A program made the position numbers and the translations under genes. Shown here piece by piece: positions 3,160-18,545 of a stretch of 32,520 nt of DNA. Source of the DNA: a bacterium (GTDB taxonomy: Bacteria; Auribacterota; Tritonobacteria; UBA1439); the NCBI GenBank assembly GCA_028716845.1, contig JAQUPF010000001.1, forward strand, positions 183,647 to 216,166. Reading direction: 5' to 3'. The notes beneath the pieces were generated by a model that worked only from the letters and a program-made list of their open reading frames with translations, ran no database searches and was not told where the DNA came from. The stretch's first letter is position 1, and each line of letters begins with the position of its first letter.

Positions 3160-6100
3160 CTATTTCGGATCGGGTGATTCGGCCGCCCTGTCCCTGGCGG
3201 TTCCCAGCTTGTTGTAGAGGCCGGAGCGGCTGATGCCGAGTTTCCTCGCCGCCAGCGTCAGGTTTCCGCCACACTCGCTGACGACATCCCGGATGAAGCC
3301 TTCCTCGAAGAGCCGCACGGCCTCCTTGACCGTGCGGTCGGCATACGCGGGCGGGAGCCCGACTTCCGCCTCCTCGGGCAGGCCGCTCCGGATCGAAGGC
3401 GAGAGCACATCCAGGTCGACCATTGCATCCGGTTCCGTCAATATCACCGCCTTCCGCATCTCGTTCTCGAGCTCCCGCACGTTGCCGGGGAACGGGTAGG
3501 CGGCGATGGCGGCCATCGCCCTCGGCGCGATTCCCCTGACCGTCTTTCCCAGCTCCCTCGAGACGGCGTTGAGGAAATAGCCGGCCAGTATCGGGATGTC
3601 CGCCTTCCGGTCGCGCAGCGGGGGGAGCGAGAGCGTCATGCCGTTCAGGCGGTAGTAGAGGTCGGCCCGGAACCGCCCCGCCGCCACCTCGTCGGCGAGG
3701 GCCCGGTTGGTCGCGGCGATGATGCGCACGTCCACCCGGCGCTCCACGTTTTCTCCGAGCCTTCTGAAGCTCTGCCCCTCGATCACCTGCAGGAGCTTCG
3801 CCTGTATGGAGGGGGACGCCTCGGCGATCTCGTCGAGGAAGAGCGTCCCGCCGTCGGCGACCTCGAGCAGCCCCTTCTTGTGCTGCGAGGCGCCGGTGAA
3901 CGCCCCCATCCGGTGCCCGAACAGTTCGCTCTCCAGGAGCGTCTCGGGCAGGTTCGCGCAGTTCTGCGCCACGAAGACCCGGTCGGCGCGGAGGCTCGCC
4001 GCGTGGATCGCGCGCGCGACCATCCCCTTCCCGGTCCCGGTCTCCCCCAGGATGAGGACATTGAGGTCCGTCGGCGCGATCTGGACGACCTGCCGCAGCA
4101 CCGCCCGGAGCGCCGGGTCCTCCCCGACGATCCCCTCCGGCCGGTGCGTGATGGTGAACTCCCGCTTGAGGCGCCGGTTCTCCTCCCGCGCGTCCCGCTC
4201 CGCGATCTTCAGCCGCTCGTACAGCTCGGCGTTCCGCAGGGCGATGGCGGCGTGCGCCGCGAAGAGCTGCAGGAGGTTCTGGTGCCGCCGGGTGAAGAGG
4301 CCGCGGATGGCGCGGTTCTCCACGTAGATGATGCCCCGCACCGCCTGATCGTCGAGCATGGGGACACAGGCGACCGAGCGGAGGCCGAGCGCCCGGATGC
4401 TCTCCCGCTCCTTCCACTCCGCGTCGCCCCGCGCGTCGGCGATGAGGATGGGCTCCACCTTCTCGGCGACCCGGCGCACGATCCCCCAGCTGATTTCACG
4501 GTCGCCGCCCTCGATCGAATTGCGCGCGTTGTCCCTCGCCACCCGCACCCGGAAGCCGCCCTCCTCCCCGAGGAGGAGGAAGCCGCGCTCGGCCCCCACG
4601 GCCTGGTTCGCGAGGTCGACGATGTGGACGAGGAGCTCGTCGAGGTCGAGGATGCGACTGACCCTGCCGCTCAGGTCGAGGACGGTCTCCAGGGCGCCCG
4701 CGTCGGCGAGCGGGGCCGGCGCGGCCGCGCCGGGCCCCGACGCGCTCCCCGGCCCGACGAACGCCTTCGCCCCGAGCGTCCGCCGGGTCACCTCCGCCTC
4801 GCGCGCCGCGGCCATGTCGCAGAACAGGTTCAGCGCCCGCTGGAGGAAGCCGACGGCGCTCGGCGAGCCCCGCGACAGCAGGTAGGTCCCGTAGAGGCGA
4901 TAGGTGCGGGCGAGCTCATAGGCGTAGCCCTGCACCTGAAAGATCGACGCCGCCCGCTCGAACAGCGCGCGCGCCCGCCGGTCGCCGCCGTACCGGGCGT
5001 GGTAGAGGGCGAGCGAACGGGAGCTCTCGGCGCGGAACCGCTTGATCCGGCCGGCCTGGGCGAGGCCCCGCAGGCAGAGCCGCCTGACCGCCCGCCTCTC
5101 CTTCACGGAGGGGGACGCCGCGCGCGCCTCGTCCGCCAGGTAGACCTCGGCGAGGAGCGCGTAGGTCATGCTGTGGGCGGGGGAGATCAGCCGGTTTGCC
5201 TCGATGAGGATCCGGCTCGCCTCGAGCTCCATCTCCGCGCGGCGGAGGTCGCCCATGGCGAAGAAGACCGATCCGCTGATCTTGTGGGCGATGGCACGCG
5301 GCGTCGCGAGCTCCGGAACGGAGGAGATCGCGAGGGACCGCCGGCAGCAGTCGAGTGCCTCCTCGAATTCGCCCCGCATCATGGCGGCCCACGCCTTGCC
5401 GTTCCACGCGCTCGCGAGCCCCCAGACATCCCCGGCGCCCCGGTGGAGCTCCACCAGGTCGTCGAAGGTGGTGGACGCCTTCCGGAGATCGCCCAGGTAG
5501 CAATAGCTCCACGCCAGGTACCGCAGCGAGTAGCCCATCTCGAGCGTGTCGCCGACCCCCCTCCATATCTCCACCGCCCGCACGAGCGTCGGGATCGCCT
5601 CCCGCACGCGCCCCTGATTCATGAGGCAGAACCCCAGGTAGCTCTGGCACTGGGCGATCCCCCACGCGCGGGCGACGAGGCCCTCGTTGATGGCCCGGCT
5701 CCGCTCGATGAACTTCTCCGCACGCCGGAAGCGGCCGACGTGGCCCATGATCAGGCCGTGCATGTTGCAGGCCTGGGCGAGATGCTCCGAGCGGCCGAGG
5801 CGCTCGGCGGCGTCGAGCTGGTGGAGGTTCGTCCAGAGCGCCCGGGCGAGGTCCCCGAGAAAGAAGTAGACGTAGCTCGCCTGGCTGAAGAGGCGGATCC
5901 GTTCCGAGACCGAGGGGTCGTCACGGCGGCGGCCGCGCGTTCGCGCCCGGCGGGGGAACGCCGAGCGCGCCGCGCGCAGGAGGAGCCGGAATCCCACCGC
6001 AGCGGCGACCGCGGCGCGATTCGAGGGGGGGGCGCAGCCGAATTCCCGCAGCGCCTGCTCGTGGAAGCGGAGCGAGTCGATGAAGCTCCCCTTCCTGAAC

Positions 6101-8565
6101 AGGACGCTCCCGATGTAGCTCCGGAGCACCGCGCCCTCCCGCCGGTCGCGCGAACACCGCCGCGCCTCCTGGAAACGAACGATCGCCGTGTCGTAGTCGC
6201 CGAGGCGGAGGTACGCCTCGCCCAGCCGGCGGTTGATCTCGATCCACTCGGCGGCGTCCTCGGCGGTCCGGTGCCCCGGGAAGAGGGAGCGGGCGCGCTC
6301 CAGGTAGTACGCCATGTCCCTGAGGGCGCAGCGCGACCGGGCGAGGGCGGCGGCGCGGAGCATGTAGCGGAAGGCCTTCTTGCCGCCGTAGCCGAGGTGG
6401 AAATGGTTGCTCAGCTCGAACGCCACGCGGTCCAGGTCGGAGAGGTTCCGCTCCTCCAGCGCGGCGCCGGCCGCCTCGTGGAGCCGGCGGCGCTCCTCCG
6501 GGGGTATCGACCGGTAGACGGCGTCGAACACCTGCTGGTGGGCGAACATGTAGCCGCCCCCCTCGACCGGACCGCGCTCCATGACGAGCTGCAGGCCGAC
6601 GGCCCTCTCGAGGAGCGGGAGGAGCTCCGCGGCCGTCTTCCCGCAGAGGGAGGAGAGGAGATCGAGCGTGAAGCGCTGCCCGAGGACCGAGGCGCAGGAG
6701 AGCACCATCCGGGCGTCCGGCTCGAGGGCCTCCACGCGGCCGGAGAGGATCTCCGCGAGCGTGCCGGGGAGCGCGGAGATGCCGCCCCTCGCCGCGTCCA
6801 TCCGCCAGGCGGCCTCCCGGCAGGCGAGCACCCCCGCGTCCACGGCCCACTTCAGGTATTCCAGGAGGAAAAGGGGGTTCCCCTTCGTGATCCGGCATAC
6901 GGCGGAGAAGACGTCCGACGGAACCTCATCGGGGAGCGCGCAGAGGACGTCGGCGACGACCAGGCGGCATTCCCCGGGGGGCAGCGGGGCGAGCGGCCGG
7001 TCGATCAGGCGACCCTCCTGCACGGCGAGGCCGGCGAGGAGGTTCGTGAATTCGCCGCCGGCGTCGACCCGCTCGGGGCAGTAGGTTCCCACGATGAGCA
7101 GCGGCCTTCCCGCGGCGCGGTGCGCGAGGTAGCCGAGGAAATACAGCGTCACCTCATCGCACCAGTGCACGTCGTCCACGAAGACGACGATCCCGCCGGT
7201 GGTCCGCGCGATCGCCTCCAGGGAGTCGGCGAGCTCGGCGAAGATCTCCTCCTGGATACTCCGCGGATCGCCGTGGGTGAGGTAGGTGAGCTCGCTCCAG
7301 GCGCGGCGGAGATCGGCGATGATTTCGGTGAAGGCGCGGCCCGCGGCCCCGTCGGCCCGTATCCCGCGGAGGAAGTGCGCGCGCTGGGACTCGGGGTAGC
7401 GCCCGAGCGTCTCCGCGAACGATTCGAGCATGTCGAGGAGGATCTGGCCCGGCTTCTCCCTGTTCCAGAGCACGCACTGCCCCGACATGAGGAGCATGTC
7501 CCTCTTCAGGCACAGCTTCAGGTACTCCTGCGCGAGGCGCGTCTTCCCGGAGCCGGGATCGCCGTGGATGAACACGACGTTTCTCCCCGGGGAGGGGAGC
7601 GCCTCGAGGACCTCCGTGAAGGCGCGGAGCTCCCCTTCCCGGCCGCGCATCGGCGGCGCGAGGTTCAGGACGCCCCGCGGACGCGCGCCCCGCGGAACGA
7701 ACGTCCCCTCCCGCCCCTGCGTGCCCATGCGCCGGAAAGCGTCGAGGTCCTCGCAGAGGGCCTCGGCGGTCAGGTACCGCTCGCCGGGGTCCTTCCTGAG
7801 CAGCGTCAGGACCATCTCATCCAGGACGCCCGGGATGGAGGGGACGACGGCGGAGGGGCGGACGGGTTCCTCCGCGACCTGTTTGTGGAGGAGCGCGGGG
7901 AGGCTGTCCGCGATGAACGGGAGCCGTCCCGTCAGCATCCGGAAGAGCACGATGCCGAGCGAGTACAGGTCCGAGCGGGGGGTGACCGGTTGTCCCAGGA
8001 TCCCGGTCTGTTCCGGCGACATGTAGCCGGCCGATCCCACGAGCTCCGCCGGATCCTCCCTTGTGGCGATGGAGTTGAGGCGGGACAGTCCGAAATCCAT
8101 CAGGATGGCGGCGGGTTCCCCGGCCGGCCCGCTCCCCTCGAGGAATATGTTGCCCGGCTTTATGTCGAGATGGAGGATCCTCGCGGCGTGGACGTGGGCG
8201 AGGGCCCGGGCAACCTGCAGCGCGATCCCCGCGGCCCTCCGGCAGTCAATCTGCCCCCGCTCGCGGATCTCGGCCTCGAGGGTGCGCCCCCGGAGGAGGG
8301 GCATGACGATGTACACCCGCCCCTCGTCGACGCCGATCCGCTCCAGCGGAATGATCCCCGGGTGCCGGAGACCGGCGAGTATCTCCGCCTCGCGCCTGAG
8401 GAGCGACACCTCCTCCATCAGATCCCGCCCGGCGCAGCGGCCCGGATCGACGAGCTTGACGACCACCTCCCGTCCCTCCACCGCATCGAAGGCCCGGTGG
8501 ACGGAGTGGCGCCGGCGGCGGGCGATCTCCTCGCGCAGCTCGTACCGTCCCTGAGACAGACGCAT
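3160..8565 (-). CDS. Ser/Thr kinase - NTPase - TPR - GAF - sigma-54 activator - Fis HTH fusion
   Basis: 1801 aa. I start at ATG 8565 (MRLSQGRYEL), preceded by GGGAAGG, because the 80 codons upstream look non-coding. Domains: Hanks kinase about 1-275 with Lys37 (VVVKLV), catalytic loop HLDIKPGN (Asp134), DFG 157-159 and YMSPEQ 181-186; AAA/STAND-like ATPase about 305-600 with Walker A GDPGSGKT 335-342 and Walker B VVFVDD ending 465; helical TPR-like region about 690-1260; GAF about 1290-1450; sigma-54 AAA+ about 1478-1700 with GETGTGKG 1507-1514, intact GAFTGA 1554-1559 and GGTLFLDEI; Fis-type HTH about 1757-1787. The kinase glycine-rich loop is degenerate (IARRRRHSVHRA). The GAFTGA loop means it should contact sigma-54 and remodel the closed complex. 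I infer a one-protein signalling chain from sensing to transcription. Monocistronic; target promoters unknown. Confidence 0.92.
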   Translation of the reverse strand: MRLSQGRYELREEIARRRRHSVHRAFDAVEGREVVVKLVDPGRCAGRDLMEEVSLLRREAEILAGLRHPGIIPLERIGVDEGRVYIVMPLLRGRTLEAEIRERGQIDCRRAAGIALQVARALAHVHAARILHLDIKPGNIFLEGSGPAGEPAAILMDFGLSRLNSIATREDPAELVGSAGYMSPEQTGILGQPVTPRSDLYSLGIVLFRMLTGRLPFIADSLPALLHKQVAEEPVRPSAVVPSIPGVLDEMVLTLLRKDPGERYLTAEALCEDLDAFRRMGTQGREGTFVPRGARPRGVLNLAPPMRGREGELRAFTEVLEALPSPGRNVVFIHGDPGSGKTRLAQEYLKLCLKRDMLLMSGQCVLWNREKPGQILLDMLESFAETLGRYPESQRAHFLRGIRADGAAGRAFTEIIADLRRAWSELTYLTHGDPRSIQEEIFAELADSLEAIARTTGGIVVFVDDVHWCDEVTLYFLGYLAHRAAGRPLLIVGTYCPERVDAGGEFTNLLAGLAVQEGRLIDRPLAPLPPGECRLVVADVLCALPDEVPSDVFSAVCRITKGNPLFLLEYLKWAVDAGVLACREAAWRMDAARGGISALPGTLAEILSGRVEALEPDARMVLSCASVLGQRFTLDLLSSLCGKTAAELLPLLERAVGLQLVMERGPVEGGGYMFAHQQVFDAVYRSIPPEERRRLHEAAGAALEERNLSDLDRVAFELSNHFHLGYGGKKAFRYMLRAAALARSRCALRDMAYYLERARSLFPGHRTAEDAAEWIEINRRLGEAYLRLGDYDTAIVRFQEARRCSRDRREGAVLRSYIGSVLFRKGSFIDSLRFHEQALREFGCAPPSNRAAVAAAVGFRLLLRAARSAFPRRARTRGRRRDDPSVSERIRLFSQASYVYFFLGDLARALWTNLHQLDAAERLGRSEHLAQACNMHGLIMGHVGRFRRAEKFIERSRAINEGLVARAWGIAQCQSYLGFCLMNQGRVREAIPTLVRAVEIWRGVGDTLEMGYSLRYLAWSYCYLGDLRKASTTFDDLVELHRGAGDVWGLASAWNGKAWAAMMRGEFEEALDCCRRSLAISSVPELATPRAIAHKISGSVFFAMGDLRRAEMELEASRILIEANRLISPAHSMTYALLAEVYLADEARAASPSVKERRAVRRLCLRGLAQAGRIKRFRAESSRSLALYHARYGGDRRARALFERAASIFQVQGYAYELARTYRLYGTYLLSRGSPSAVGFLQRALNLFCDMAAAREAEVTRRTLGAKAFVGPGSASGPGAAAPAPLADAGALETVLDLSGRVSRILDLDELLVHIVDLANQAVGAERGFLLLGEEGGFRVRVARDNARNSIEGGDREISWGIVRRVAEKVEPILIADARGDAEWKERESIRALGLRSVACVPMLDDQAVRGIIYVENRAIRGLFTRRHQNLLQLFAAHAAIALRNAELYERLKIAERDAREENRRLKREFTITHRPEGIVGEDPALRAVLRQVVQIAPTDLNVLILGETGTGKGMVARAIHAASLRADRVFVAQNCANLPETLLESELFGHRMGAFTGASQHKKGLLEVADGGTLFLDEIAEASPSIQAKLLQVIEGQSFRRLGENVERRVDVRIIAATNRALADEVAAGRFRADLYYRLNGMTLSLPPLRDRKADIPILAGYFLNAVSRELGKTVRGIAPRAMAAIAAYPFPGNVRELENEMRKAVILTEPDAMVDLDVLSPSIRSGLPEEAEVGLPPAYADRTVKEAVRLFEEGFIRDVVSECGGNLTLAARKLGISRSGLYNKLGTARDRAAESPDPK

Positions 8566-8583
8566 GGCGCACCTTCCCGCGCC

Positions 8584-8606
8584 CCTCCCCGCGGCCCGCG
8601 GGGAGG
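8584..8606 (-). promoter_or_regulatory. 23-nt GC palindrome in the kinase-gene leader
   Basis: CCTCCCCGCGG (8584-8594) and CCGCGGGGAGG (8596-8606) are perfect inverted copies around one central C. It ends 18 nt before the kinase/sigma-54 start codon, just upstream of its ribosome binding site. It could be an operator, or in the mRNA a stable hairpin that limits translation. No protein is known to bind it. Confidence 0.45.
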
Positions 8607-8810
8607 ACGGGAACGTTACTCTAGCACATTCCGAAACGGCGCCGCCGCCCCTTTGTCCGTCCGGTGCGCGCAACCGGGCGACGGCGGGGCATGGCGACCG
8701 GACGGCGCGGATCGCACCGTGGCCGGAAGTGACAGCCCGGAGCGGGAAGCGAAACAACCTTCCGCTCCGGGCCTGTGTGTATCGGCTGCCGCCGGGTGCC
8801 GGCAATCACC

Positions 8811-8868: not shown

Positions 8869-9681
8869 TCAGAGCTGCTGGTCCACGCTCCCGTCCATCC
8901 CCACGTCGACGCCGTCGGCGACGCCGTCGCCGTCCTGGTCGACCAGCACCGCGTCGGGAACGCCGTCGCCGTCAAGATCGGCGAGCGTGCCGGCGGGGGG
9001 CATGCCCTGCAACGGGGGATTCCATCTGGCGCCGTCCCATGTCGTGTCCCACTCGCCGTCGGGGTTCGGCCCGAGATCCAGCCTCGTCCCCACGGGGGGG
9101 GCGCCATCCGGCGGGCCACCGGCGCCGGCCGGCTCCTCGAGCTCCATGAGAACGGCGCCGGTCTCCGCATCGGCGACCGCGTCGGCGACGCCGTTGCCGT
9201 TCCGGTCGATCAGGACGGCGTCCACGACGCCGTCGCCATCCGCGTCCACAACCGTGCCCACGGGCGGCATCCGCGTGATGGGCGGGTTCCAGGCGGCGCC
9301 GTCATAGGTGGCGTCCCATTCGCCGTCGGGCGGAGCAAAGTCGATCCTCGTGCCCGCACGGGGGCCGACCTCTCCGGCGCCGGCCGGCTCCTCGAGCTCC
9401 ATGAGAACGGCGCCGGTCTCCACATCGGCGACCGCGTCGGCGACGCCGTTGCCGTTCCGGTCGATCAGGACGGCGTCCACGACGCCGTCGCCATCCGCGT
9501 CCACGACCGTGCCCACGGGCGGCATCCGCGTGATGGGCGGGTTCCAGGCGGCGCCGTCATAGGTGGCGTCCCATTCGCCGTCGGGCGGAGCAAAGTCGAT
9601 CCTCGTGCCCGCCGGCTGTGCGGATGCGAATGCCGCGGGAAGAAACAGGCACACCGCCGCGCACAGAATAACCGTCCTCAT
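8869..9681 (-). CDS. secreted protein of three tandem Asp-rich (calcium-site-like) repeats
   Basis: 270 aa. The start ATG at 9681 follows AGGAGG and encodes a signal peptide cut after about residue 21 (FASAQ). The mature protein is three repeats of about 80-88 aa, each starting GTR-(I/L)-D, containing DGEWD and WNPP, and then VDADGDGVVDAVLIDRNGN-type runs. The DxDGDGxxD loops resemble EF-hand, dockerin or thrombospondin type-3 calcium sites, so calcium binding is likely from the family pattern. Repeats 1 and 2 are nearly identical even in DNA; repeat 3 has diverged (DLDGDGVPDAV, DQDGDGVADGV). No anchor is visible at the C-terminus. I do not recognise a named family. It diverges from the arn operon across a 181-bp spacer that holds a promoter for each side. 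Confidence 0.75.
   Translation of the reverse strand: MRTVILCAAVCLFLPAAFASAQPAGTRIDFAPPDGEWDATYDGAAWNPPITRMPPVGTVVDADGDGVVDAVLIDRNGNGVADAVADVETGAVLMELEEPAGAGEVGPRAGTRIDFAPPDGEWDATYDGAAWNPPITRMPPVGTVVDADGDGVVDAVLIDRNGNGVADAVADAETGAVLMELEEPAGAGGPPDGAPPVGTRLDLGPNPDGEWDTTWDGARWNPPLQGMPPAGTLADLDGDGVPDAVLVDQDGDGVADGVDVGMDGSVDQQL
9121..9612 (-). repeat. near-identical 237-bp tandem duplication inside the Asp-repeat gene
   Basis: Positions 9121-9357 and 9376-9612 align with a 255-bp period and differ at about two bases (G at 9167 against A at 9422, and an A/G in the ACAACC/ACGACC stretch). Such identity at third codon positions points to a recent duplication or gene conversion of one protein repeat. 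Confidence 0.85.
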
Positions 9682-9716
9682 CTCGGGCCTCCTTCCTGTG
9701 TCGCTTCCCCGTACGT

Positions 9717-9745
9717 ATTGAAAGCCCTCGGGGGGATGTTGTCAA
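9717..9745 (-). promoter_or_regulatory. predicted promoter of the Asp-repeat protein gene
   Basis: On the minus strand a perfect TTGACA (9745-9740) is followed after 17 nt by TTCAAT (9722-9717), a 4/6 match to the -10. The predicted transcript start is about 30 nt upstream of the ATG at 9681. Confidence 0.5.
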
Positions 9746-9779
9746 GTGATATTCCCGGATCCGTCCCCGGGCCATGTCA

Positions 9780-9806
9780 CCGGGACATCTCACGCCGGGA
9801 CATCTC
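9780..9806 (+). promoter_or_regulatory. 12-bp direct repeats next to the arn promoter
   Basis: CCGGGACATCTC occurs at 9780-9791 and 9795-9806, a 15-bp period, ending 3 nt before the predicted -35 at 9810. Direct repeats at about -40 to -65 are where response-regulator activators often bind. The motif does not look like the enterobacterial PmrA box. Binding is inferred only. Confidence 0.4.
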
Positions 9807-9809
9807 CCC

Positions 9810-9838
9810 TTGCCTCCGCACCCGCGGGGCGATATAAT
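9810..9838 (+). promoter_or_regulatory. predicted promoter of the arn operon
   Basis: TTGCCT (9810-9815) and a perfect TATAAT (9833-9838) are spaced by exactly 17 nt. The predicted transcript starts about 18 nt before the arnB ATG at 9863. The weak -35 would suit activator dependence, in line with the direct repeats just upstream. Confidence 0.6.
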
Positions 9839-9862
9839 GGCGGCCGCATTCCGAAAACCACG

Positions 9863-11044
9863 ATGACCGCCGCGCGGCAGCAGATGCTCCCCTTCTCCCG
9901 CCCCTCCATCGGCGAGGAGGAGATCGCCGAGATCGTCGACTCGATCCGGTCCGGATGGATCACGACCGGGCCGAAGTGCCACCGCTTCGAGGAGGAGGTG
10001 AAGGCGTACGTCGGGGCGAAGAACGCCGTCGCCCTCTCCTCCGCCACCGCGGGGCTCCACCTCGCCCTCCTCGCCGCCGGCGTCGGCCCCGGCGACGAGG
10101 TCGTCCTCCCCTCGATGACGTTCGCCGCCACCGCGAACATGGTCGCCCTCGTCGGTGCGCGGCCCGTCTTCGCGGACATCGGCGACGATCTCAACATCCT
10201 GCCGGAGCGGATCGAGGCGGCCTGCACGCCGAAGACGAAGGCGCTCATGCCCGTCCATTTCGCCGGCGCCCCGTGCCGCATGGACGAGATCCTGGAGATC
10301 GCCCGGCGCCGGAATCTGATCGTCATCGAGGACGCCGCCCACGCCATCGGCACCGAGTACCGCGGGCGGCGCGTCGGCTCCATCGGCGCGATGGCCGTCT
10401 TCAGCTTCCACCCGATCAAGAACATCACCACCGCCGAGGGCGGCATGCTCGTCACCGACGACGACGCACTCGCCGAGCGGGTGCGGCTCCTCAAGTTCCA
10501 CGGGATCCGGAAGGACGCCTGGCGCCGGTACGGCGCCCGCGAGATCCCGCAGTACGAGATCCTCTTCCCCGGCTTCAAGTACAACCTGACCGACCTCCAG
10601 GCGGCGCTCGGCATCCACCAGCTGAAGAAGCTCGACCGCTTCATCGGGGAGCGCACGCGGCTCGCCGACCTCTACACGGAACTCCTCTCGGGGACCGACG
10701 GCATCCTCCTCCCCCGGAGGCCGGAGGAGCCGGGGACGCGCCACGCCTGGCACCTCTACGTCGTCATGGCGGACATCGACCGGCTCGCCATCGACCGGGA
10801 CCGGTTCATGGCGGAGATGCTCGCCGCCAACATCGGCATCGGCCTCCACTTCCCCGCGGTGCACCTCCAGCCGTACTACGCGCGCACCTTCGGCTGCGCC
10901 CGCGGGCAGCTGCCGAAGACCGAGTTCGTCTCCGACCGCATCTTCTCACTCCCCCTCTACCCCGGCATGTCCGAGGCGGACGCGAGGGACGCGGCCGCGG
11001 CGGCCGCCGGGATCGCGGCGGGGCACCGGAGGCGGGCGCGATGA
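9863..11044 (+). CDS. arnB: UDP-4-amino-4-deoxy-L-arabinose aminotransferase ArnB
   Basis: 393 aa from ATG 9863; ATG 9884 (MLPFSRPS) is an alternative because E. coli ArnB begins only a few residues before LPFSRP, and neither has a strong Shine-Dalgarno site. ArnB is a PLP-dependent DegT/DnrJ aminotransferase that converts UDP-4-keto-pentose to UDP-L-Ara4N in the cytoplasm with glutamate as donor. ArnB-specific stretches are clear: SGWITTGPK (30-38), SSATAGLH (59-66), IEDAAHA with Asp157 for the pyridine nitrogen, FSFHPIKNIT with Lys186 as the PLP Schiff-base lysine, and FHG then GFKYNLTDLQAA. First gene of the operon; its stop overlaps arnC by ATGA. Confidence 0.93.
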   Translation: MTAARQQMLPFSRPSIGEEEIAEIVDSIRSGWITTGPKCHRFEEEVKAYVGAKNAVALSSATAGLHLALLAAGVGPGDEVVLPSMTFAATANMVALVGARPVFADIGDDLNILPERIEAACTPKTKALMPVHFAGAPCRMDEILEIARRRNLIVIEDAAHAIGTEYRGRRVGSIGAMAVFSFHPIKNITTAEGGMLVTDDDALAERVRLLKFHGIRKDAWRRYGAREIPQYEILFPGFKYNLTDLQAALGIHQLKKLDRFIGERTRLADLYTELLSGTDGILLPRRPEEPGTRHAWHLYVVMADIDRLAIDRDRFMAEMLAANIGIGLHFPAVHLQPYYARTFGCARGQLPKTEFVSDRIFSLPLYPGMSEADARDAAAAAAGIAAGHRRRAR

Positions 11045-11994
11045 GCCCCGGCGCGGCGGCCGATCCCCCGGTCGACATCTCCGTCGTCATCCCCGTCTTC
11101 AACGAGGAGGAGAACATCGGGGAGCTCCACCGGCGGCTCTCGGCGGCGCTCGAGGAGACGGGGCGCCGCTACGAGGTCATCCTCGTCGACGACGGCTCCT
11201 CCGACCGCTCGGTGGAGCGCATCGACCGCATCATCGGGAACGACCCGCGCGTGCGGCTCGTCGAGTTCAACAAGAACTACGGCCAGCACGCCGCCGTCTT
11301 CGCCGGCCTCGAGCAGTCCCGGGGCGCGGTTGTCGTCACCCTCGACGCCGACCTCCAGAACCCGCCGGAGGAGATCCCGAAGCTCCTCGCGAAGATCGAC
11401 GAGGGGTACGACATCGTCGGGGGGATGCGCGCCCGGCGGCGCGACTCCGCCCTCCGCAAGGTCCCCTCCTGGTTCGTCAACCGCTTCGTCTCGCGCGCCA
11501 CCGGCGTCCGCCTCCGCGACTACGGCTGCATGCTCCGCGCCTACCGGCGGATCGTGGTCGACCAGATCCTGCGCTGCAACGAGATCTCGAGCTTCATCCC
11601 GACGCTCGCGAACGCCTTCGCCCGCTCCGTCACGGAGATCCCGGTCGCCCACGAGGAGCGGCGGCGGGGCAAGTCCAAGTACGGCCTCGGGCGCCTCCTC
11701 CGCCTCAACTTCGACCTCGTGACCGGCTTCTCGCTCATGCCGATCCAGCTCATCAGCGTCCTCGGCATCCTCATCGCGCTGCTCGGGGTGGCGTTCGGCC
11801 TCTTCCTCGGCGTCATGCGGCTCATCCGCGGCCCCGAGTGGGCCGCGGAGGGCGTCTTCACGCTCTTCGCCGTCCTGTTCGTCTTTATGGGCGTGCAGTT
11901 CCTCGCGATGGGGCTCATCGGGGAGTACATCGGCCGCATCTACGCCGAGGTCCGGAACCGCCCCCGCTACGTCATCAGGCGGATCTCCTCATGA
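11041..11994 (+). CDS. arnC: undecaprenyl-phosphate 4-deoxy-4-formamido-L-arabinose transferase ArnC
   Basis: 317 aa; start ATG 11041 overlaps the arnB stop. GT2 glycosyltransferase that moves the formamido-arabinose from UDP to undecaprenyl phosphate on the cytoplasmic face of the inner membrane. Seen: VVIPVFNEEENI at the N-terminus, VDDGSSD about 49-55, LDADLQNPPEEIP with the DxD at 102-104, the ArnC-like GCMLRAYRR, and two C-terminal transmembrane helices around 240-300 (SLMPIQLISVLGILIALLG and VFTLFAVLFVFMGVQFLAMG), ending IGEYIGRIYAEVRNRPRY as in E. coli ArnC. Length matches the family (about 320 aa). Generic polyprenol-phosphate GT2 enzymes are close relatives, but the context settles this call. 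Confidence 0.92.
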   Translation: MSPGAAADPPVDISVVIPVFNEEENIGELHRRLSAALEETGRRYEVILVDDGSSDRSVERIDRIIGNDPRVRLVEFNKNYGQHAAVFAGLEQSRGAVVVTLDADLQNPPEEIPKLLAKIDEGYDIVGGMRARRRDSALRKVPSWFVNRFVSRATGVRLRDYGCMLRAYRRIVVDQILRCNEISSFIPTLANAFARSVTEIPVAHEERRRGKSKYGLGRLLRLNFDLVTGFSLMPIQLISVLGILIALLGVAFGLFLGVMRLIRGPEWAAEGVFTLFAVLFVFMGVQFLAMGLIGEYIGRIYAEVRNRPRYVIRRISS

Positions 11995-12016
11995 CCGGGG
12001 GCGTCGCGCTCGTCGC

Positions 12017-13645
12017 ATGAAACGCACGGCATTCCTCGCGGGCCTCGCGCTTCTCATTCTCGCGGCGGCCTTCGTCCTCTTCTACCGGCTCGGCGAGCGC
12101 GGCTTCGAGAACAGGGACACCATCTGGTACGTCGTGATCGCCTGGGAGATGCTCCGCTCCGGCGACTGGATCGTCCCCCGCTTCAACTGCGTCATCTTCA
12201 CGGAGAAGCCGATCCTCTTCATCTGGCTCGTCGCCCTCCTCGCCCGGGCGGCGGGCGCCCTCACCCCGTTCGTCTCCCGGCTCCCGTCGGCCCTCGCGGC
12301 CCTCGGCTGCGTCCTCCTCACCGTCCGCCTCGGCCGCCGCCTCTTCGGCACGCGGGCGGCGCTCCTCGCGGGCCTCGCGCTCTGCACGAGCTACGCCTTC
12401 GCCTGGGAGGCGCGGGTCTGCATGGTGGACATGCTCTTCACCCTCTTCGTGACCGCCTCCCTCCTCCTCGTCTGGGAGGGCCTCCGCGCCGATCCGCCGC
12501 GCGGCGGCGCGCTCCTCGCCGGCTACGCGGCCGTCGGCCTCGCCGCCCTCACGAAGGGGCCGCTCGGCGTCATCTTCCCGGCCCTCGCCGTCCTCGCCCA
12601 CCTCGCCTGGACGCGGCGGCTCGGCGCCGTCCGCCGGATGCGCCTCCCGTGGGGGATCCTCATCGTCGTCGCGATGCAGGCGGCATGGTACGTCCCCTTC
12701 CTCCTCAGGATCGGCCCCGAGGGGCGGCGGTTCTTCGTGGACATGTACGTCTACAAGGAGAACCTCCTCCGCTTCACCACCGGCTTCGACAAGCCGGAGC
12801 CGTTCTGGTTCTATCTCCCCGCCTTCCTCTCGCACTTCCTGCCGTGGAGCGTCTTCCTCGTCCTCTGGCCGTTCGCCCCCGGCCCGCGCCGCGACGCGCG
12901 CTTCCCCTGGGCCTGGCTCCTCTCGATCCTCCTCTTCCTCACGATCAGCACGGGAAAGCACTCCCGGTACGCGCTCCCCGTCTACCCGGCCGCCGCCCTC
13001 CTCGTGGGGGATTTCTGGGACCGGCTGATGGCGGCGGAGGGCGGCCGGCTCCGCTGCGTCGTGGCGGGGCTCGTCGCCTGCGCCGCGGCCGCCGCCGCGG
13101 CGGGCTACCCGGTCTTCGTCCGCAACGTCGCGCCGGGGATGTTCGGTCCCGCGGTCGTCGCCGCCGCCGCCCTCCTCCTCGCCCTCGCGGCCCTTTCCGT
13201 CCGCCGGCCCCTCGGCACGCACCTCCAGGCGTCGTTCGCCGTCGTCGTCCTCGCCTTCCTCCTAATGTGGTCCGCCTACATCGCGGGCCTCCCGGCGCAC
13301 GACGCGCGGCGCGCCGAGCACGAGCGGCTCGCCCTCGACGTGGCGCCGGCCGTCGGCGGGGCGCCGCTCGCGCTCTACGGCCCCACCGACGAGCGGTTCG
13401 GCAGGCGCCTCGGTCTCGGTCTCTTCCTCGGCCGGCCGGTGGCGTTCTTCGACCGCGAGGAGGATCTCCTCGCGTTCCTCCGCTCCGACCGGCGGGCCTT
13501 CTGCCTCATGGAGCGCGCGGTGTACGACGAGGCCGCAGAGCGCCTCGGCCCGTCCGTCGTCCCGGTCGCCCCGCACCGGTACCGCCGCTTCGACCTCATC
13601 CTCGTCGCGGCCGGGCCGGCCGACGTGCCCGCGGTGTCCCCGTGA
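12017..13645 (+). CDS. arnT: ArnT-like lipid-linked aminoarabinose transferase (GT-C, PMT family)
   Basis: 542 aa, close to the 550 aa of E. coli ArnT. Integral inner-membrane protein with about a dozen hydrophobic segments and a more polar C-terminal part. ArnT moves L-Ara4N from undecaprenyl phosphate to lipid A on the periplasmic side. The N-terminal region MLRSGDWIVPRFN followed by FTEKPILFIWLVALL matches the ArnT/PMT pattern EMLxSGDWIVPxxxxxxFEKPPLxYW. Unusually, the first acidic motif reads ENRDTIWY rather than DETRYA, and KPP is KPI. CMVDM supplies the acidic residue of the next loop. The start at 12017 is 22 nt after arnC with only a weak Shine-Dalgarno. Acceptor specificity cannot be read from sequence; the substitutions leave room for another acceptor. 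Confidence 0.8.
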   Translation: MKRTAFLAGLALLILAAAFVLFYRLGERGFENRDTIWYVVIAWEMLRSGDWIVPRFNCVIFTEKPILFIWLVALLARAAGALTPFVSRLPSALAALGCVLLTVRLGRRLFGTRAALLAGLALCTSYAFAWEARVCMVDMLFTLFVTASLLLVWEGLRADPPRGGALLAGYAAVGLAALTKGPLGVIFPALAVLAHLAWTRRLGAVRRMRLPWGILIVVAMQAAWYVPFLLRIGPEGRRFFVDMYVYKENLLRFTTGFDKPEPFWFYLPAFLSHFLPWSVFLVLWPFAPGPRRDARFPWAWLLSILLFLTISTGKHSRYALPVYPAAALLVGDFWDRLMAAEGGRLRCVVAGLVACAAAAAAAGYPVFVRNVAPGMFGPAVVAAAALLLALAALSVRRPLGTHLQASFAVVVLAFLLMWSAYIAGLPAHDARRAEHERLALDVAPAVGGAPLALYGPTDERFGRRLGLGLFLGRPVAFFDREEDLLAFLRSDRRAFCLMERAVYDEAAERLGPSVVPVAPHRYRRFDLILVAAGPADVPAVSP

Positions 13646-14568
13646 AGCTCCTCGTGATGGGGTACCACGACATCGGCTGCGCCTGTCTCGAGACGCTCGC
13701 CGATCTCGGGGCGGAGATCGCCGCGGTGGTCACCCACGCCGACAGCCCGAACGAGCGCATCTGGTTCGGGTCGGTGCGGGACGCCGCCTTCTCACGCTGC
13801 CTTCCCGTCTACCAGCCGGCGGACGTCAACGACCCCCGGATGGTCGCCGCCGTCAGGCGGATGGCGCCCGACATCATCTTCTCGTTCTACTTCCGGCAGA
13901 TCCTCGGCCCGGAGATCCTGGCCGCCCCGAGGGTCGGCGCGTTCAACCTGCACGGCTCGCTCCTGCCGCGCTACCGCGGCCGCTGTCCGGTGAACTGGGT
14001 CCTCGTCCACGGCGAGCGGGAGACCGGCGTGACGCTCCACCGGATGGAGGCGAGGCCGGACCGGGGGGCGATCGTGGCCCGGCGCGCCGTGCCGATCGAG
14101 TTTACGGACACCGCCCGCACGCTCTTCGGGAGGATGACGGCGGCGGCCGCCGACCTGATGCGGGAGACGTGGCCCCGCATGCGCGCGGGCGACATCCCCG
14201 AGATCCCCCAGGACCACGCCGCCGCGTCGTACTTCGGCGGCCGGCGGCCGGAGGACGGCAGGATCGACTGGTCGAAGGGCGCGGTCGAGATCTACAACCT
14301 CGTCCGGGCGGTCACCCATCCGTACCCGGGCGCCTTCACCGCGGCGGGGGGGCGGAAGCTGTTCGTCTGGTGGGCCGAGCCGCTCGCGGACGCGCCTGCC
14401 GGCGGCGCCCCCGGGGAAATCCTTCCGCCCCCGGACGGCGGGATCGCGGTCGCCACCGGCGCCGGGGTCCTCGTCCTCAGGAGGGCGCAGTGGGAGGGGG
14501 GGCCGGAGGCGGAGGGGGACGCCCTCGCGGAGACGATCGGCCTCCCCCCGGGGAGCAGGCTGGGGTAG
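13642..14568 (+). CDS. arnA: UDP-L-Ara4N formyltransferase (ArnA N-terminal half as a stand-alone gene)
   Basis: 308 aa from a GTG at 13642 that overlaps the arnT stop (GTGA), so translation is probably coupled. It transfers a formyl group from 10-formyl-tetrahydrofolate to the 4-amino group of UDP-L-Ara4N in the cytoplasm. The catalytic triad falls at exactly the E. coli ArnA positions: Asn102 and His104 in FNLHGSLLPRYRG and Asp140 in EARPDRG. The length equals the E. coli ArnA formyltransferase domain (about 305 aa), and the protein ends where E. coli ArnA would continue into the dehydrogenase. Here that second half is a separate gene 47 nt downstream. The long upstream in-frame extension from 12649 is a shadow of arnT. 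Confidence 0.92.
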   Translation: MKLLVMGYHDIGCACLETLADLGAEIAAVVTHADSPNERIWFGSVRDAAFSRCLPVYQPADVNDPRMVAAVRRMAPDIIFSFYFRQILGPEILAAPRVGAFNLHGSLLPRYRGRCPVNWVLVHGERETGVTLHRMEARPDRGAIVARRAVPIEFTDTARTLFGRMTAAAADLMRETWPRMRAGDIPEIPQDHAAASYFGGRRPEDGRIDWSKGAVEIYNLVRAVTHPYPGAFTAAGGRKLFVWWAEPLADAPAGGAPGEILPPPDGGIAVATGAGVLVLRRAQWEGGPEAEGDALAETIGLPPGSRLG

Positions 14569-14615
14569 AATGGGGAAGCGCCCGCCGCGCGCGGGCGAAA
14601 GAAAAGGAGACGCGC

Positions 14616-15575
14616 ATGAGAGTGCTCATCACCGGCGGGGCGGGGTTCCTCGGTTCGCACCTGACCGATGCGTTCATCAGGGAGGGGAATGAGGTGTTCA
14701 TCCTCGACACCGGGTCGAGCTTCAAGATCAGGCACCTCCTCGACAACGCCCGCTTCCACTTCGTCCACGACACCGTCTTCAACCTGGAGATGCTCGAGTC
14801 GCTCATCATCAAGTGCGATCTCATCTACCACATGGCGGCGGTCGTCGGCGTCGAGCACTACGTCGCCGACCCGTACGCCGTCCTCAACGTCAACATCAAC
14901 GGCACGCAGAACGTCCTGCGCCTCGCCCACAAGCACAACAGGAAGGTCGTCTTCACCTCCACCTCCGAGGTGTACGGGCGGAACCCCAAGGTCCCCTGGG
15001 ACGAGGACGACGACCGGGTCCTCGGCTCGACCCGCATCGACCGCTGGTGCTACTCCACCTCGAAGGCGGCGGGCGAGCACTTCTGCCACGCCTACCGGAA
15101 GATGGGGCTCCCCGTGGTGATCGTGCGCTACTTCAACGCCTACGGCCCCCGCCTCGACCGGGTCGACGTCGGCCGCGTCCTCACCATCTTCATCGGCCAG
15201 CTCCTCCGGAACGAGCCGATCACCGTCATCGGGGACGGGAGCCAGACGCGCTGCTTCACCTACATCGACGACGCGATCCGGGCGACCGTCGCCGCGGGGC
15301 TGAAGCCGGAGGCGGAGGGGGAGATCATCAACATCGGGACGGACGTGGAGACCACCATCAGCGAGCTCGCCGAGACCATGATCAGGGTCTCGGGCGCGGC
15401 GTCGAAGATCAAGTTCGTCGCCGAGGAGTCCGTCTACGGGAAGAGCTACGAGGACATCCAGCGGCGCGTCCCGAGGGTCGAGAAGATGCACCGGATCCTC
15501 GGCGTGAAGGCCGACACCCCGCTCGAGGAGGGGGTCCGGCAAACCTGGGAGTGGTTCAGGGCGATGGCGCAGTAG
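14616..15575 (+). CDS. arnA: UDP-glucuronate decarboxylase/dehydrogenase (ArnA C-terminal half as a stand-alone gene)
   Basis: 319 aa; ATG 14616 has a good AAAAGGAGA ribosome binding site. Extended short-chain dehydrogenase: NAD-binding GGAGFLG 7-13, TSTSEVYG with Ser117 and Glu118, YSTSK with Tyr146 and Lys150, CFTYIDDAI, GEIINIG, and YEDIQRR with Arg284. These match Ser433, Glu434, Tyr463, Lys467 and Arg619 of E. coli ArnA, the residues for NAD-dependent oxidation of UDP-glucuronate at C4 and decarboxylation to UDP-4-keto-pentose. UDP-xylose synthases share most of them, so motif evidence alone cannot exclude that activity; the arn context favours the ArnA reaction, the first committed pathway step. 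As a separate protein it could escape the hexameric assembly known for fused ArnA. Confidence 0.85.
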   Translation: MRVLITGGAGFLGSHLTDAFIREGNEVFILDTGSSFKIRHLLDNARFHFVHDTVFNLEMLESLIIKCDLIYHMAAVVGVEHYVADPYAVLNVNINGTQNVLRLAHKHNRKVVFTSTSEVYGRNPKVPWDEDDDRVLGSTRIDRWCYSTSKAAGEHFCHAYRKMGLPVVIVRYFNAYGPRLDRVDVGRVLTIFIGQLLRNEPITVIGDGSQTRCFTYIDDAIRATVAAGLKPEAEGEIINIGTDVETTISELAETMIRVSGAASKIKFVAEESVYGKSYEDIQRRVPRVEKMHRILGVKADTPLEEGVRQTWEWFRAMAQ

Positions 15576-15604
15576 CCGCGCCGGGGGCGGTTCCATCGGG
15601 CCCG

Positions 15605-15623
15605 GGCGGGGCGCGTCCCCGCC
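15605..15623 (+). other. intercistronic GC hairpin within the arn operon
   Basis: GGCGGGG (15605-15611) pairs with CCCCGCC (15617-15623) over a 5-nt loop in the 75-nt gap between the dehydrogenase and methyltransferase genes. No T-run follows, so it is more likely an RNA-stability or partial-attenuation element than a terminator. Confidence 0.35.
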
Positions 15624-15650
15624 GGGACCGGCACGGCGCCCGACGCCTCC

Positions 15651-16550
15651 ATGAAGCCGACCGATACCGAGCGATTTCTCTACGTGCTGTTCTCCGGCGG
15701 ACGGGACATCCCCGGCTACTACCGCCTGCGGCGTTTCCTCGCCGATTTCGAGCTCGTGCGCCCGACGCCCGCCTCCGTCCTCGACGCCGGGTGCGGCTGG
15801 GGGGCGCCGAAGAGCATCTACCTCGCCAGGTGCCATCCCCGCGTGAAGGTGACGGGCATCGACCTGTCGGGGGACGCCGTGGCCCGCGCGGAATCCCTCG
15901 CGCGGAAGTACGGCCTCGACAATGCGCGGTTCCTGCAACGGAACGTGACCGCACCGTTCGGCCTCGGAACCTTCGACTGCGTCATCGTCTCGGACGTCCT
16001 GGAACACGTCGAGGACGACGCGCGCTTCGCGGCGAATATCGACGCCTCCCTCGGCCCCGGCGGGTACGTGCACGTCAATGCCCCCGCCAGGGCGCACGAC
16101 TACGACCCCTCGAAGCTCAGCCCCGCGGAGAGGGAGGACCTCGCGAAATGGATGCGGGATGTCGGCCATGTCCGCTTCGGCTACAGCCTCGACGAGATCA
16201 GGGCCCTCTTCAGCGGCTACGAGGTGGTGCGGGCGAAGACGGTCGGCAACGCCCTCTGCAAGCTGGCCTTCTTCCTGTGGGAAAAGGCGGTGTTCGATCC
16301 CGGGAGGATGCCTCCCGGGGCGCCCCGCCGGCATTTCAAGCTCCCCCTCCTCGGCGCGCTCGATTCGTTCGCGGAGCGCCATCTCGTCAGGAAGGATCCC
16401 CCCCCGCCGCCGCCTCCGCTCAACGAGCGGATGTTCGTCCAGGCGCTCCGCACGATCGACCTGGGCATCGAGCTGGAAATGCGCGGGGCCCTCGATGAAC
16501 GCTACCTCATCGGGGAGGAGCTCTGCGTCCTGTTGCGGAAGCCGGCCTGA
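15651..16550 (+). CDS. class I SAM-dependent methyltransferase inside the arn operon
   Basis: 299 aa. The Rossmann methyltransferase motifs are clear: motif I VLDAGCGWG (about 43-50), the acidic end of strand 2 in GIDLSGDAV (Asp71), and SDVLEHVEDD (about 114-123), then LGPGGYVHVNAP. The C-terminal third (about 200-299) is rich in basic and aromatic residues and carries a run of seven prolines near 255-262. No membrane helix is obvious. The substrate is unknown. It lies between the dehydrogenase gene and arnD, all on the same strand, so it probably acts on an intermediate or product of the Ara4N pathway, or on the glycan acceptor; this is inference. A methyltransferase is not part of the classical E. 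coli arn operon. Confidence 0.8.
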   Translation: MKPTDTERFLYVLFSGGRDIPGYYRLRRFLADFELVRPTPASVLDAGCGWGAPKSIYLARCHPRVKVTGIDLSGDAVARAESLARKYGLDNARFLQRNVTAPFGLGTFDCVIVSDVLEHVEDDARFAANIDASLGPGGYVHVNAPARAHDYDPSKLSPAEREDLAKWMRDVGHVRFGYSLDEIRALFSGYEVVRAKTVGNALCKLAFFLWEKAVFDPGRMPPGAPRRHFKLPLLGALDSFAERHLVRKDPPPPPPPLNERMFVQALRTIDLGIELEMRGALDERYLIGEELCVLLRKPA

Positions 16551-16573
16551 GGCCGCGCGGGGAGTACCTCGGT

Positions 16574-17542
16574 TTGCGCATGCACGCTGATCAGTGCGTC
16601 CTTTCGCTCAAGGTCGACGTCGACACCTACCGCGGCATGGAGGCGGGCGTTCCGGCGCTCATCCGGATCCTCGCCCGGCGCCGGGTCCGCGCGGCCTTCT
16701 TCATCGCCATGGGACCCGACAACTCGGGGAGGGCGGTCATCCGCTTCTTCACGAAGCGCGGCTTCCTGAAGAAGATGCTCCGGTCGAACGCGGCGGGGAT
16801 GTACGGTATCCGCACCGCCCTCTCGGGAACGCTCCTCCCCGCGCGGCAGATCGCCCGTTCCTTCCCCGGCCGTTTCCGCGCCCTCCTCGACGGGGGGCAC
16901 GAGGTCGGCGTCCACGGATATGACCATGTCCGCTGGCACGACGGGATCCCGCGGATGGGCCCGGAGGAGACGAGGGAGGAGTTCGGGCGCGCCTGCCGCC
17001 TCTTCCGGGAGATCGCCGGAGGCGAGCCGGCCTGCTCCGCGGCGCCGGGATGGGCCTGCTCGCCGCGCCAGCTCGCCGTCCAGGACGAAACGCGGATGCG
17101 CTACCACAGCGACACGCGCGGGGCGGAGCCGTTCCTTCCCGTGATGGACGGCTACCGCGCCGCGCACCTCCAGGTGCCCACCACGCTCCCGACGCTCGAC
17201 GAGCTCCTCGGGAGCGGGGCGTGCCGCGATGCCGGCGATCTGCTCCGGTATTACGCGGGGGCGATCGGCCGGCCGGGGACCCACGTCCTCACCGTCCACG
17301 CCGAGGCGGAGGGGATGGGCTGGGCGGGATGGTTCGAGGCGCTCCTGGACGACCTCGCCTCGCGCGGCGTGCGCCTCGCGACGATGCGGGAGATCGCGGA
17401 GGAGGCCCTCGCCGTCCCCGACCGCATCCCCCGCCGGGAGATCCGGATGGCCGAGATCCCCGGCCGCGCCGGCCCCGTCGCCGTGGACGCTGCCTCAATG
17501 GAGCGGTTGCGCGCAGCGCCTACAACTCGTATATGTCGCTGA
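16574..17542 (+). CDS. arnD: 4-deoxy-4-formamido-L-arabinose-phosphoundecaprenol deformylase ArnD
   Basis: 322 aa from TTG 16574, which has GGAG at a 9-nt spacing; ATG 16580 is the alternative but sits 15 nt away. NodB-like polysaccharide deacetylase that removes the formyl group from undecaprenyl-phosphate-Ara4FN. ArnD-type motifs run in order: KVDVDTYRG (metal Asp15/Asp17), MGPDNSGR, LKKMLRSNAAGMYG, HEVGVHGYDH (zinc-ligand histidines), CSAAPGWACS, RYHSDTRGAEPF, QVPTTLPTLDEL and LTVHAEAEG. All have direct counterparts in E. coli ArnD, which is about 25 aa shorter; the extra residues are a C-terminal tail. Last gene of the operon. Its 3' end overlaps the convergent metallopeptidase gene by 23 bp. 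Confidence 0.92.
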   Translation: MRMHADQCVLSLKVDVDTYRGMEAGVPALIRILARRRVRAAFFIAMGPDNSGRAVIRFFTKRGFLKKMLRSNAAGMYGIRTALSGTLLPARQIARSFPGRFRALLDGGHEVGVHGYDHVRWHDGIPRMGPEETREEFGRACRLFREIAGGEPACSAAPGWACSPRQLAVQDETRMRYHSDTRGAEPFLPVMDGYRAAHLQVPTTLPTLDELLGSGACRDAGDLLRYYAGAIGRPGTHVLTVHAEAEGMGWAGWFEALLDDLASRGVRLATMREIAEEALAVPDRIPRREIRMAEIPGRAGPVAVDAASMERLRAAPTTRICR

Positions 17543-18545
17543 GGACGTACCAGGTCACCAGGGCGGTGACCTCGGCGAGCTTGGCGCCCTCCTCGGACTT
17601 CACCATCAGCAGGCCGTAGTGGCGGCAGACCGCCTCCATCCGGCGGAGGATCTTCATGATGGAGTTCCTGTTGGAGTGCAGGATCCAGCCCGCGACGCCG
17701 TCGACGACCGCCTCCCGGAACCGCCGCAGGAAATCCGCCGCGGGAATGTGGTACTCCCTCCGGCGGGCGACGCGGGAGAAGATGAGGCGCAGGTCCTTGA
17801 TGTACTCCTCCATCTCCTCCTCGCCGAGCGCGCTCACCGCCTCCGTTTCGTAGAGCTGCGCGATCGTCCGCCGCTCCCGCCGGGCGGGGGCGTCGTACGC
17901 GATCCTCCGGACGATCGGGGACTTCGCGGCGATCTCCTTCATGACGATGTCCACGTAGATGAGCTTCTCGATCGCGTCCCATCCCTTGTAGCGCCGCCGC
18001 CAGTTGAGGCCGGGGGTGAGCCAAACGGCGAACGACTCGGCCCAGTCGTCGTCAGGATGCCGCTGCGCGTAGACGAGGTCGAGGTGGCGGACGTGCCTCC
18101 TGCTCCCCCGCCGGGGGTTGTAGGCACGCGGGTAGCGCTTCATGAAATCCCCGAACAGCTCCCGCCAGTGCCGGCGCAGGTGGAGCTTGTAGGCGTAGTT
18201 GACGGCGTGGCCGGTCTCGTGCCGGAGGATCTTCATGATCTCGCCCGGGCTCTCCACGTCGGGGGAATACTCGCCGTGGAGGAGGGTGAGCTCGCGGTTC
18301 GCCAGGTAGAACGGGACCTCGATGCAGATGGTGCCGTCCACGCACCCCCAGCCGTCGCCGATGTCGGCGCCCAGGTAGAAGCGGGGGCGGAACCGGATCC
18401 CCTTCCGGCGGAGCTCCCGGTACAGCTCGAGGATGCAGATGCGCAGCGTCCCCTCGATCTTCAGCGGCAGGTCGCAGACGCGCGTGTTGAGGAGCTCGTA
18501 GCGCCGTATCTGCCTGACGGATTTCTGCACCTTCTTCGCGCTCAT
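17520..18545 (-). CDS. putative zinc-binding metallopeptidase
   Basis: 341 aa; the start ATG at 18545 overlaps the deacetylase stop (ATGA). The zinc-site motif HETGH lies at 109-113 (His109, Glu110, His113) and a downstream DDDWAESFAVWL supplies a likely third ligand, Glu170, as in gluzincin-type enzymes; the layout resembles the putative zinc-binding metallopeptidase (Peptidase_Mx) family. The N-terminal third contains FYLGADIGDGWGCVDG. There is no signal peptide or membrane segment, so a cytoplasmic enzyme is suggested. The C-terminal half (about 215-341) is helical and charged. It is the last of three translationally coupled genes after a reductase and a polysaccharide deacetylase, which suggests a role in envelope or exopolysaccharide work. 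The substrate is unknown. Confidence 0.7.
   Translation of the reverse strand: MSAKKVQKSVRQIRRYELLNTRVCDLPLKIEGTLRICILELYRELRRKGIRFRPRFYLGADIGDGWGCVDGTICIEVPFYLANRELTLLHGEYSPDVESPGEIMKILRHETGHAVNYAYKLHLRRHWRELFGDFMKRYPRAYNPRRGSRRHVRHLDLVYAQRHPDDDWAESFAVWLTPGLNWRRRYKGWDAIEKLIYVDIVMKEIAAKSPIVRRIAYDAPARRERRTIAQLYETEAVSALGEEEMEEYIKDLRLIFSRVARRREYHIPAADFLRRFREAVVDGVAGWILHSNRNSIMKILRRMEAVCRHYGLLMVKSEEGAKLAEVTALVTWYVLSDIYEL

Follow-up and report, generated by a model that had tools for sequence, protein, structure and literature searches.

A divergent arn-type operon with a stand-alone, UDP-glucuronate decarboxylase-like dehydrogenase in Auribacterota

Introduction

Most studies of cell-envelope modification of the 4-amino-4-deoxy-L-arabinose (L-Ara4N) type have dealt with polymyxin resistance in Proteobacteria. 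The reference system is the arnBCADTEF operon of Escherichia coli, in which formyltransferase and dehydrogenase activities reside in one fused protein, ArnA. In this work, we describe a seven-gene variant of the arn operon located in a stretch of 32,520 nucleotides (positions 183,647 to 216,166 of contig JAQUPF010000001.1, assembly GCA_028716845.1), hereinafter the window, whose numbering is used throughout. The host genome (G000) belongs to the phylum Auribacterota and comprises 2.68 Mb at 95% completeness. Like the E. coli operon, the locus encodes ArnB, ArnC, a formyltransferase, ArnD and an ArnT-like enzyme and retains the catalytic residues of both ArnA activities. Unlike it, the host has the formyltransferase and the dehydrogenase as two genes, the dehydrogenase is only 33% identical to the C-terminal half of E. 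coli ArnA and falls into another clade, arnT stands ahead of the formyltransferase gene, a methyltransferase gene is added, and the operon has no arnE or arnF.

Split arn operons accompanied by a separate transport operon are known from Burkholderia (PMC7835334), and splitting as such is therefore not new. In those operons (Burkholderia, PMC7835334; gammaproteobacterial locus L185), as in the host, separate formyltransferase and dehydrogenase genes lie between arnC and arnD. Their dehydrogenase, described by the PRK11908 model, groups with ArnA, while that of the host stands outside and under the cut-off of the model. In fold, T-S-E/Y/K catalytic set and an equivalent of R619, the host enzyme also resembles UDP-xylose synthase (UXS) and EvdS6-type decarboxylases, some of which release a 4-keto-pentose for transamination (PMC10338323). 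The structures of ArnA, UXS and EvdS6 do not explain why the 4-keto-pentose is released in some cases and reduced in others (PMC10338323).

Organization of the Operon

The seven genes lie on the forward strand at 9863-17542. The gene order proposed in the initial annotation is borne out by the open reading frames (ORFs) and by the family models that match them best. The features are as follows.

9810..9838 (+): promoter-like site TTGCCT-17-TATAAT, sigma-70-like, ending 24 bp upstream of arnB
9863..11044 (+): arnB, putative UDP-4-keto-pentose aminotransferase of the DegT/DnrJ family; best model NCBIfam ArnB
11041..11994 (+): arnC, putative transferase of 4-deoxy-4-formamido-L-arabinose (Ara4FN) to undecaprenyl phosphate, GT2; best model NCBIfam ArnC
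12017..13645 (+): arnT-like glycosyltransferase of the PMT/GT83 type; best model NCBIfam ArnT
13642..14568 (+): stand-alone formyltransferase with a GTG start; PRK06988, matching the N-terminal half of ArnA
14616..15575 (+): stand-alone short-chain dehydrogenase/reductase (SDR) of the NAD-dependent epimerase/dehydratase family, type II clade (see below), proposed UDP-glucuronate C4-oxidase/decarboxylase
15651..16550 (+): class I S-adenosylmethionine-dependent methyltransferase; Pfam Methyltransf_23/25/11
16580..17542 (+): arnD, putative undecaprenyl phosphate-Ara4FN deformylase, with an ATG start or, alternatively, a TTG start at 16574; best model NCBIfam ArnD

Neighbouring ORFs overlap or stand no more than 75 bp apart. 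The sigma-70-like consensus has one match in 9600-17800, where chance alone would give 0.2; such a match does not prove function. The operon is matched gene for gene in relatives from two other genera (G022 and G023), and the ratio of nonsynonymous to synonymous substitution rates (dN/dS) in the comparison with G023 is approximately 0.16-0.34 for six genes, including the methyltransferase gene, and 0.59 for arnT. Because of this conservation and these ratios, the seven ORFs are real genes, and chance ORFs were ruled out. The operon is a real, intact and conserved variant of a known pathway.

Two Operon Types in Auribacterota and Other Phyla

Forty-four genomes of the phylum were compared, the relatives including contigs titled Candidatus Auribacterota, and arnD-like genes were found in 14 of them. 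Two kinds of operon were distinguished, for which we coined the working names type I and type II. Type I carries a fused formyltransferase-dehydrogenase gene, whose product is 61-63% identical to full-length E. coli ArnA in G019, G009, G006 and G007 and 58% identical in G016 (loci L047, L048, L050, L051 and L171). The fusion has been reported in Pseudomonadota only (PMC12650200). Its presence in several Auribacterota extends this range and argues against such a confinement; caution is needed because the genomes in question are metagenome-assembled genomes (MAGs). Type II, with separate genes, was found in the host family (G000, G021, G022, G023 and, up to the contig end, G024) and in G001 and G002; its dehydrogenases in this phylum are just 31-34% identical to E. 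coli ArnA. In G017 (L045:674-2963) and G018 (L046:757-2858), arnC adjoins arnD, and neither a formyltransferase nor a dehydrogenase gene lies between or beside them.

A scan of a genome collection with the type II dehydrogenase gave 60 loci at 56-88% identity, in MAGs named Deltaproteobacteria/Binatota, Rokubacteria/Methylomirabilota, Planctomycetota, Schekmanbacteria, Armatimonadetes, Elusimicrobia and Chloroflexi. Such names may be wrong, and three of the 60 loci are Auribacterota-family contigs already present in the phylum set. The dehydrogenase gene is neighboured by a formyltransferase gene in 53 of the 60 loci, by arnD in 49 of the 58 that could be tested and by arnC in 46 of 53; based on these counts, the gene set is stable across phyla. 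By its gene content, type II is a second, coherent kind of arn operon, and it occurs in several phyla. No description of the type II operon, nor of any arn operon in these phyla, turned up in a literature search that left most subscription journals outside its reach.

At six loci (L074, L088, L091, L094, L098 and L108), the type II dehydrogenase gene stands without the neighbouring arn genes; at two of these, L094 and L108, an arnT-like gene lies next to it. Rokubacteria loci, including L097 and L099, have genes upstream of the operon that by eye resemble FabF and FabZ of fatty-acid synthesis.

Stand-Alone Dehydrogenase

The locus had been described as an arnA gene split in two. Two separate genes are indeed present and the formyltransferase matches the N-terminal half of ArnA, but the dehydrogenase belongs to another clade. 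It scores 190.7 with PRK11908 (cut-off 294) and 187.6 with the ArnA model, whose cut-off of 777 refers to the whole fused protein. With PRK11908, the type II SDRs reach 162-191 bits, in contrast to 507 bits for the C-terminal half of E. coli ArnA. In the phylogenetic trees, the type II SDRs form one clade (support 96/89 and 97/94), apart from ArnA with PRK11908 (100/100), and UXS forms its own clade (100/99 and 100/100), separate from the type II SDRs. The formyltransferase and ArnD trees likewise separate the two operon types. Thus, the dehydrogenase appears not to be simply a cut-off half of ArnA, and seems deeply divergent, with a clade of its own. An approximately unbiased (AU) test did not reject a joint clade of type II with ArnA/PRK11908 (p 0.43) and therefore leaves room for an ancient common arn dehydrogenase; following this test, we no longer regard it as certain that an unrelated enzyme took the place of the ArnA half.

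The catalytic residues of both ArnA activities had been noted as intact, and they are: N102, H104 and D140 in the formyltransferase, and S433, E434, Y463, K467 and R619 in the dehydrogenase (ArnA numbering). S433, E434, R460, W461, Y463, K467, N492, Q533, R535, Y609, Y613 and R619 are conserved throughout the 64 aligned type II SDRs, none of which has the ArnA insert bearing R510. W461, Y609 and Y613 are common to type II and ArnA and are absent from UXS. R460, R619 and the T-S-E motif distinguish UDP-glucuronate decarboxylases from dehydratases and 4-epimerases (PMC7984243, PMC10338323). An AlphaFold model of the SDR (mean predicted local distance difference test score, pLDDT, 89) aligned with ArnA at Z 40.1 (root-mean-square deviation 2.3, 315 residues) and with human UXS at Z 39.6 (1.8, 302 residues), which is a tie. 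SDRs approximately 40% identical to type II, encoded on Streptomyces and Haloarcula plasmids, adjoin nucleotide-sugar dehydrogenases; by analogy, these neighbours are in keeping with a UDP-uronate substrate for the type II SDR.

Other roles for the dehydrogenase were considered. It is unlikely to be the UXS of the host, whose genome has a separate UXS-like gene, and, from the T-S-E motif and R619 (PMC7984243), it is also unlikely to be a 4,6-dehydratase or a UDP-glucuronate 4-epimerase.

Other Enzymes of the Operon

ArnB and ArnC are 47% and 53% identical to their E. coli counterparts and score 452 bits (E 1e-135, cut-off 631) and 402 bits (E 1e-120, cut-off 529) with the respective NCBIfam models. 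ArnD is 36% identical to the E. coli protein (227 bits, E 3e-67, cut-off 382). The formyltransferase shares 45% identity with residues 1-305 of E. coli ArnA and, alone among the proteins of the operon, passes a curated cut-off (PRK06988, 370 bits, E 6e-111, cut-off 316). The ArnT-like protein scores 115 bits (E 3e-33, cut-off 567) and is 27% identical to E. coli ArnT across 356 residues. Compared with the ArnT motifs YFEKP and RYA (PMC5377068), it has FTEKP where the former is expected and retains the tyrosine of the latter. Since the NCBIfam cut-offs are naming thresholds, we claim a divergent arn-type operon and not enterobacterial equivalogs.

The formyltransferase triad given above, ArnB K188 and other ArnB residues, and ArnD D9, H106, H110 and H233 are conserved in both operon types. 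The aminotransferase, undecaprenyl phosphate transferase, formyltransferase and deformylase expected of an arn pathway, with conserved catalytic residues, are thus found in one operon.

Proposed Pathway

The LpxC gene is present in all 44 genomes of the phylum, including that of the host, which rules out a genome without lipid A, and the host genome has a UDP-glucose-dehydrogenase-type gene. Together with homology and conserved catalytic residues, these findings support the earlier proposal that an L-Ara4N-type pathway exists beyond the Proteobacteria in which it is usually found.

Based on gene content, homology, conserved catalytic residues and neighbourhood, LpxC and the UDP-glucose-dehydrogenase-type gene, we consider it probable that the type II operon makes undecaprenyl phosphate-L-Ara4N along the established chemical route, its decarboxylase being a separate, deeply divergent enzyme. 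We suggest the following steps. UDP-glucose dehydrogenase, encoded elsewhere, would provide UDP-glucuronate. The stand-alone SDR would oxidize it at C4 and decarboxylate it, releasing UDP-4-keto-pentose, which ArnB would aminate. The amino-sugar product would be formylated by the stand-alone formyltransferase and loaded onto undecaprenyl phosphate by ArnC, after which ArnD would deformylate the lipid-linked sugar. Some transporter would then flip it, and the ArnT-like protein would transfer the sugar, most likely to lipid A.

As noted earlier, no arnE/arnF-like ORF adjoins the operon. In the host genome, at its 95% completeness, there was no match to SMR (PF00893) or GtrA, and the only EamA protein is a two-domain one, with no small one seen. 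In G022, two small EamA proteins are encoded side by side on another contig (C54, L165:7701-8500), far from the arn operon of that genome, one of them 27% identical to E. coli ArnE; this pair is a candidate unlinked flippase, with no counterparts in the host genome, G021 or G023. The fused-ArnA genomes G006, G007 and G009 gave no flippase match either, and no conserved small membrane proteins were seen beside the type II loci. Since matches are lacking even in fused-ArnA genomes, a different transporter is likely to flip the lipid-linked sugar in much of the phylum.

Several points weigh against the proposed pathway. Although they are the best-matching models, ArnB, ArnC, ArnD and ArnT all score under the curated NCBIfam cut-offs, and the weak relationship of the ArnT-like protein leaves its acceptor and sugar less certain. 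No known flippase type was found in the host genome with SMR, EamA, GtrA and G022-protein queries, and seven type II SDR loci have no formyltransferase neighbour. Furthermore, release of the 4-keto-pentose by the SDR cannot be told from its reduction to UDP-xylose by reading the sequence (PMC10338323).

Two other explanations should be weighed. The locus may be an ordinary split ArnA of the Burkholderia kind, its dehydrogenase being a sister of the ArnA dehydrogenase that evolved fast or branched off long ago. Agreement in gene order and in catalytic residues, the outcome of the AU test and the residues W461, Y609 and Y613 speak for this; nevertheless, the known split form groups with ArnA at full support, whereas the type II SDRs form their own clade, fall far below the PRK11908 cut-off and all lack the ArnA insert, and we regard this explanation as tenable but rather doubtful. 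A different 4-amino sugar, carried on undecaprenyl phosphate to a glycan other than lipid A, would fit the sub-threshold scores of ArnB, ArnC, ArnD and ArnT, the low identity of the ArnT-like protein and the divergence of the SDR. Yet the SDR carries the marks of UDP-glucuronate decarboxylases (PMC7984243, PMC10338323), ArnB, ArnC and ArnD have the arn models as their best matches, and LpxC is present, so that such a sugar seems quite improbable.

What stands out in the proposed pathway to L-Ara4N is the type II dehydrogenase and how widely it occurs, rather than the fact of a split, and the methyltransferase is a lead. If the proposal is true, L-Ara4N-type envelope modification would occur widely among uncultured phyla of soil and groundwater, as a variant missed by ArnA-based annotation. 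The type II SDR would then serve as a sequence handle for finding such operons and as a new enzyme for asking what decides between release of the 4-keto-pentose and its reduction to xylose.

Methyltransferase

The methyltransferase gene lies between the dehydrogenase gene and arnD in three Auribacterota genera of the host family, represented by G000, G023 (81% identity) and G022 (53%), and ends 29 bp ahead of the arnD ATG. Its dN/dS of approximately 0.29 against G023 indicates purifying selection. Between G022 and G000, the methyltransferase and ArnT are both 53% identical, and the remaining operon proteins are 64-87% identical. The gene is missing from the operons of G021, which belongs to the same family, and of G001 and G002, and from all 49 type II loci in which the dehydrogenase gene adjoins arnD (gap of no more than 283 bp); no type II locus outside Auribacterota carries it. 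It appears to be a lineage-specific addition. G020 (83% complete) has a partial homologue, its N-terminal portion (53% identity, L024:6-431), at a contig end after genes that by eye are fhs-like and DUF3108-like; neither arnD nor a type II dehydrogenase was found in this genome. From this patchy distribution and the G020 homologue, the tie of the methyltransferase to the sugar is therefore positional only.

The initial annotation had suggested that the sugar is perhaps methylated, and beyond gene position the comparison does not bear this out. A structure model (pLDDT 76) gave similar Z scores with a large number of class I methyltransferases, and no substrate was discriminated. A plasmid search gave generic matches only, none spanning 80% of the query, and no papers on methylated Ara4N were found. 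Our best guess at its activity is methylation of the sugar, before or after linkage to the lipid, but this is unlikely. It is equally doubtful that the operon makes N- or O-methylated L-Ara4N (or methylates the lipid-linked form), an undescribed envelope sugar, by way of a separately recruited UDP-glucuronate decarboxylase. On balance, we lean towards a methyltransferase with a role in some other pathway, placed in the operon by co-transcription only, the sugar being plain L-Ara4N. Its absence from the other type II operons and its occurrence in G020 agree with this, while the same slot kept in three genera, close to arnD, and purifying selection do not.

A 33%-identical relative of the methyltransferase (L023:12-962) lies beside genes that by eye are UROD-like and phosphotransacetylase-like.

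Flanking Genes

Three ORFs on the reverse strand flank the operon. Upstream, the ORF at 3160-8805 (1881 aa) looks by eye like a regulator with protein kinase, ATPase, GAF and sigma-54 activator parts, and that at 8869-9681 (270 aa) contains long internal repeats, about three in number, with many DADGDGVVDAV motifs. Downstream, the convergent ORF at 17520-18545 encodes a 341-aa protein with a weak Peptidase_Mx match and overlaps the 3′ end of arnD.

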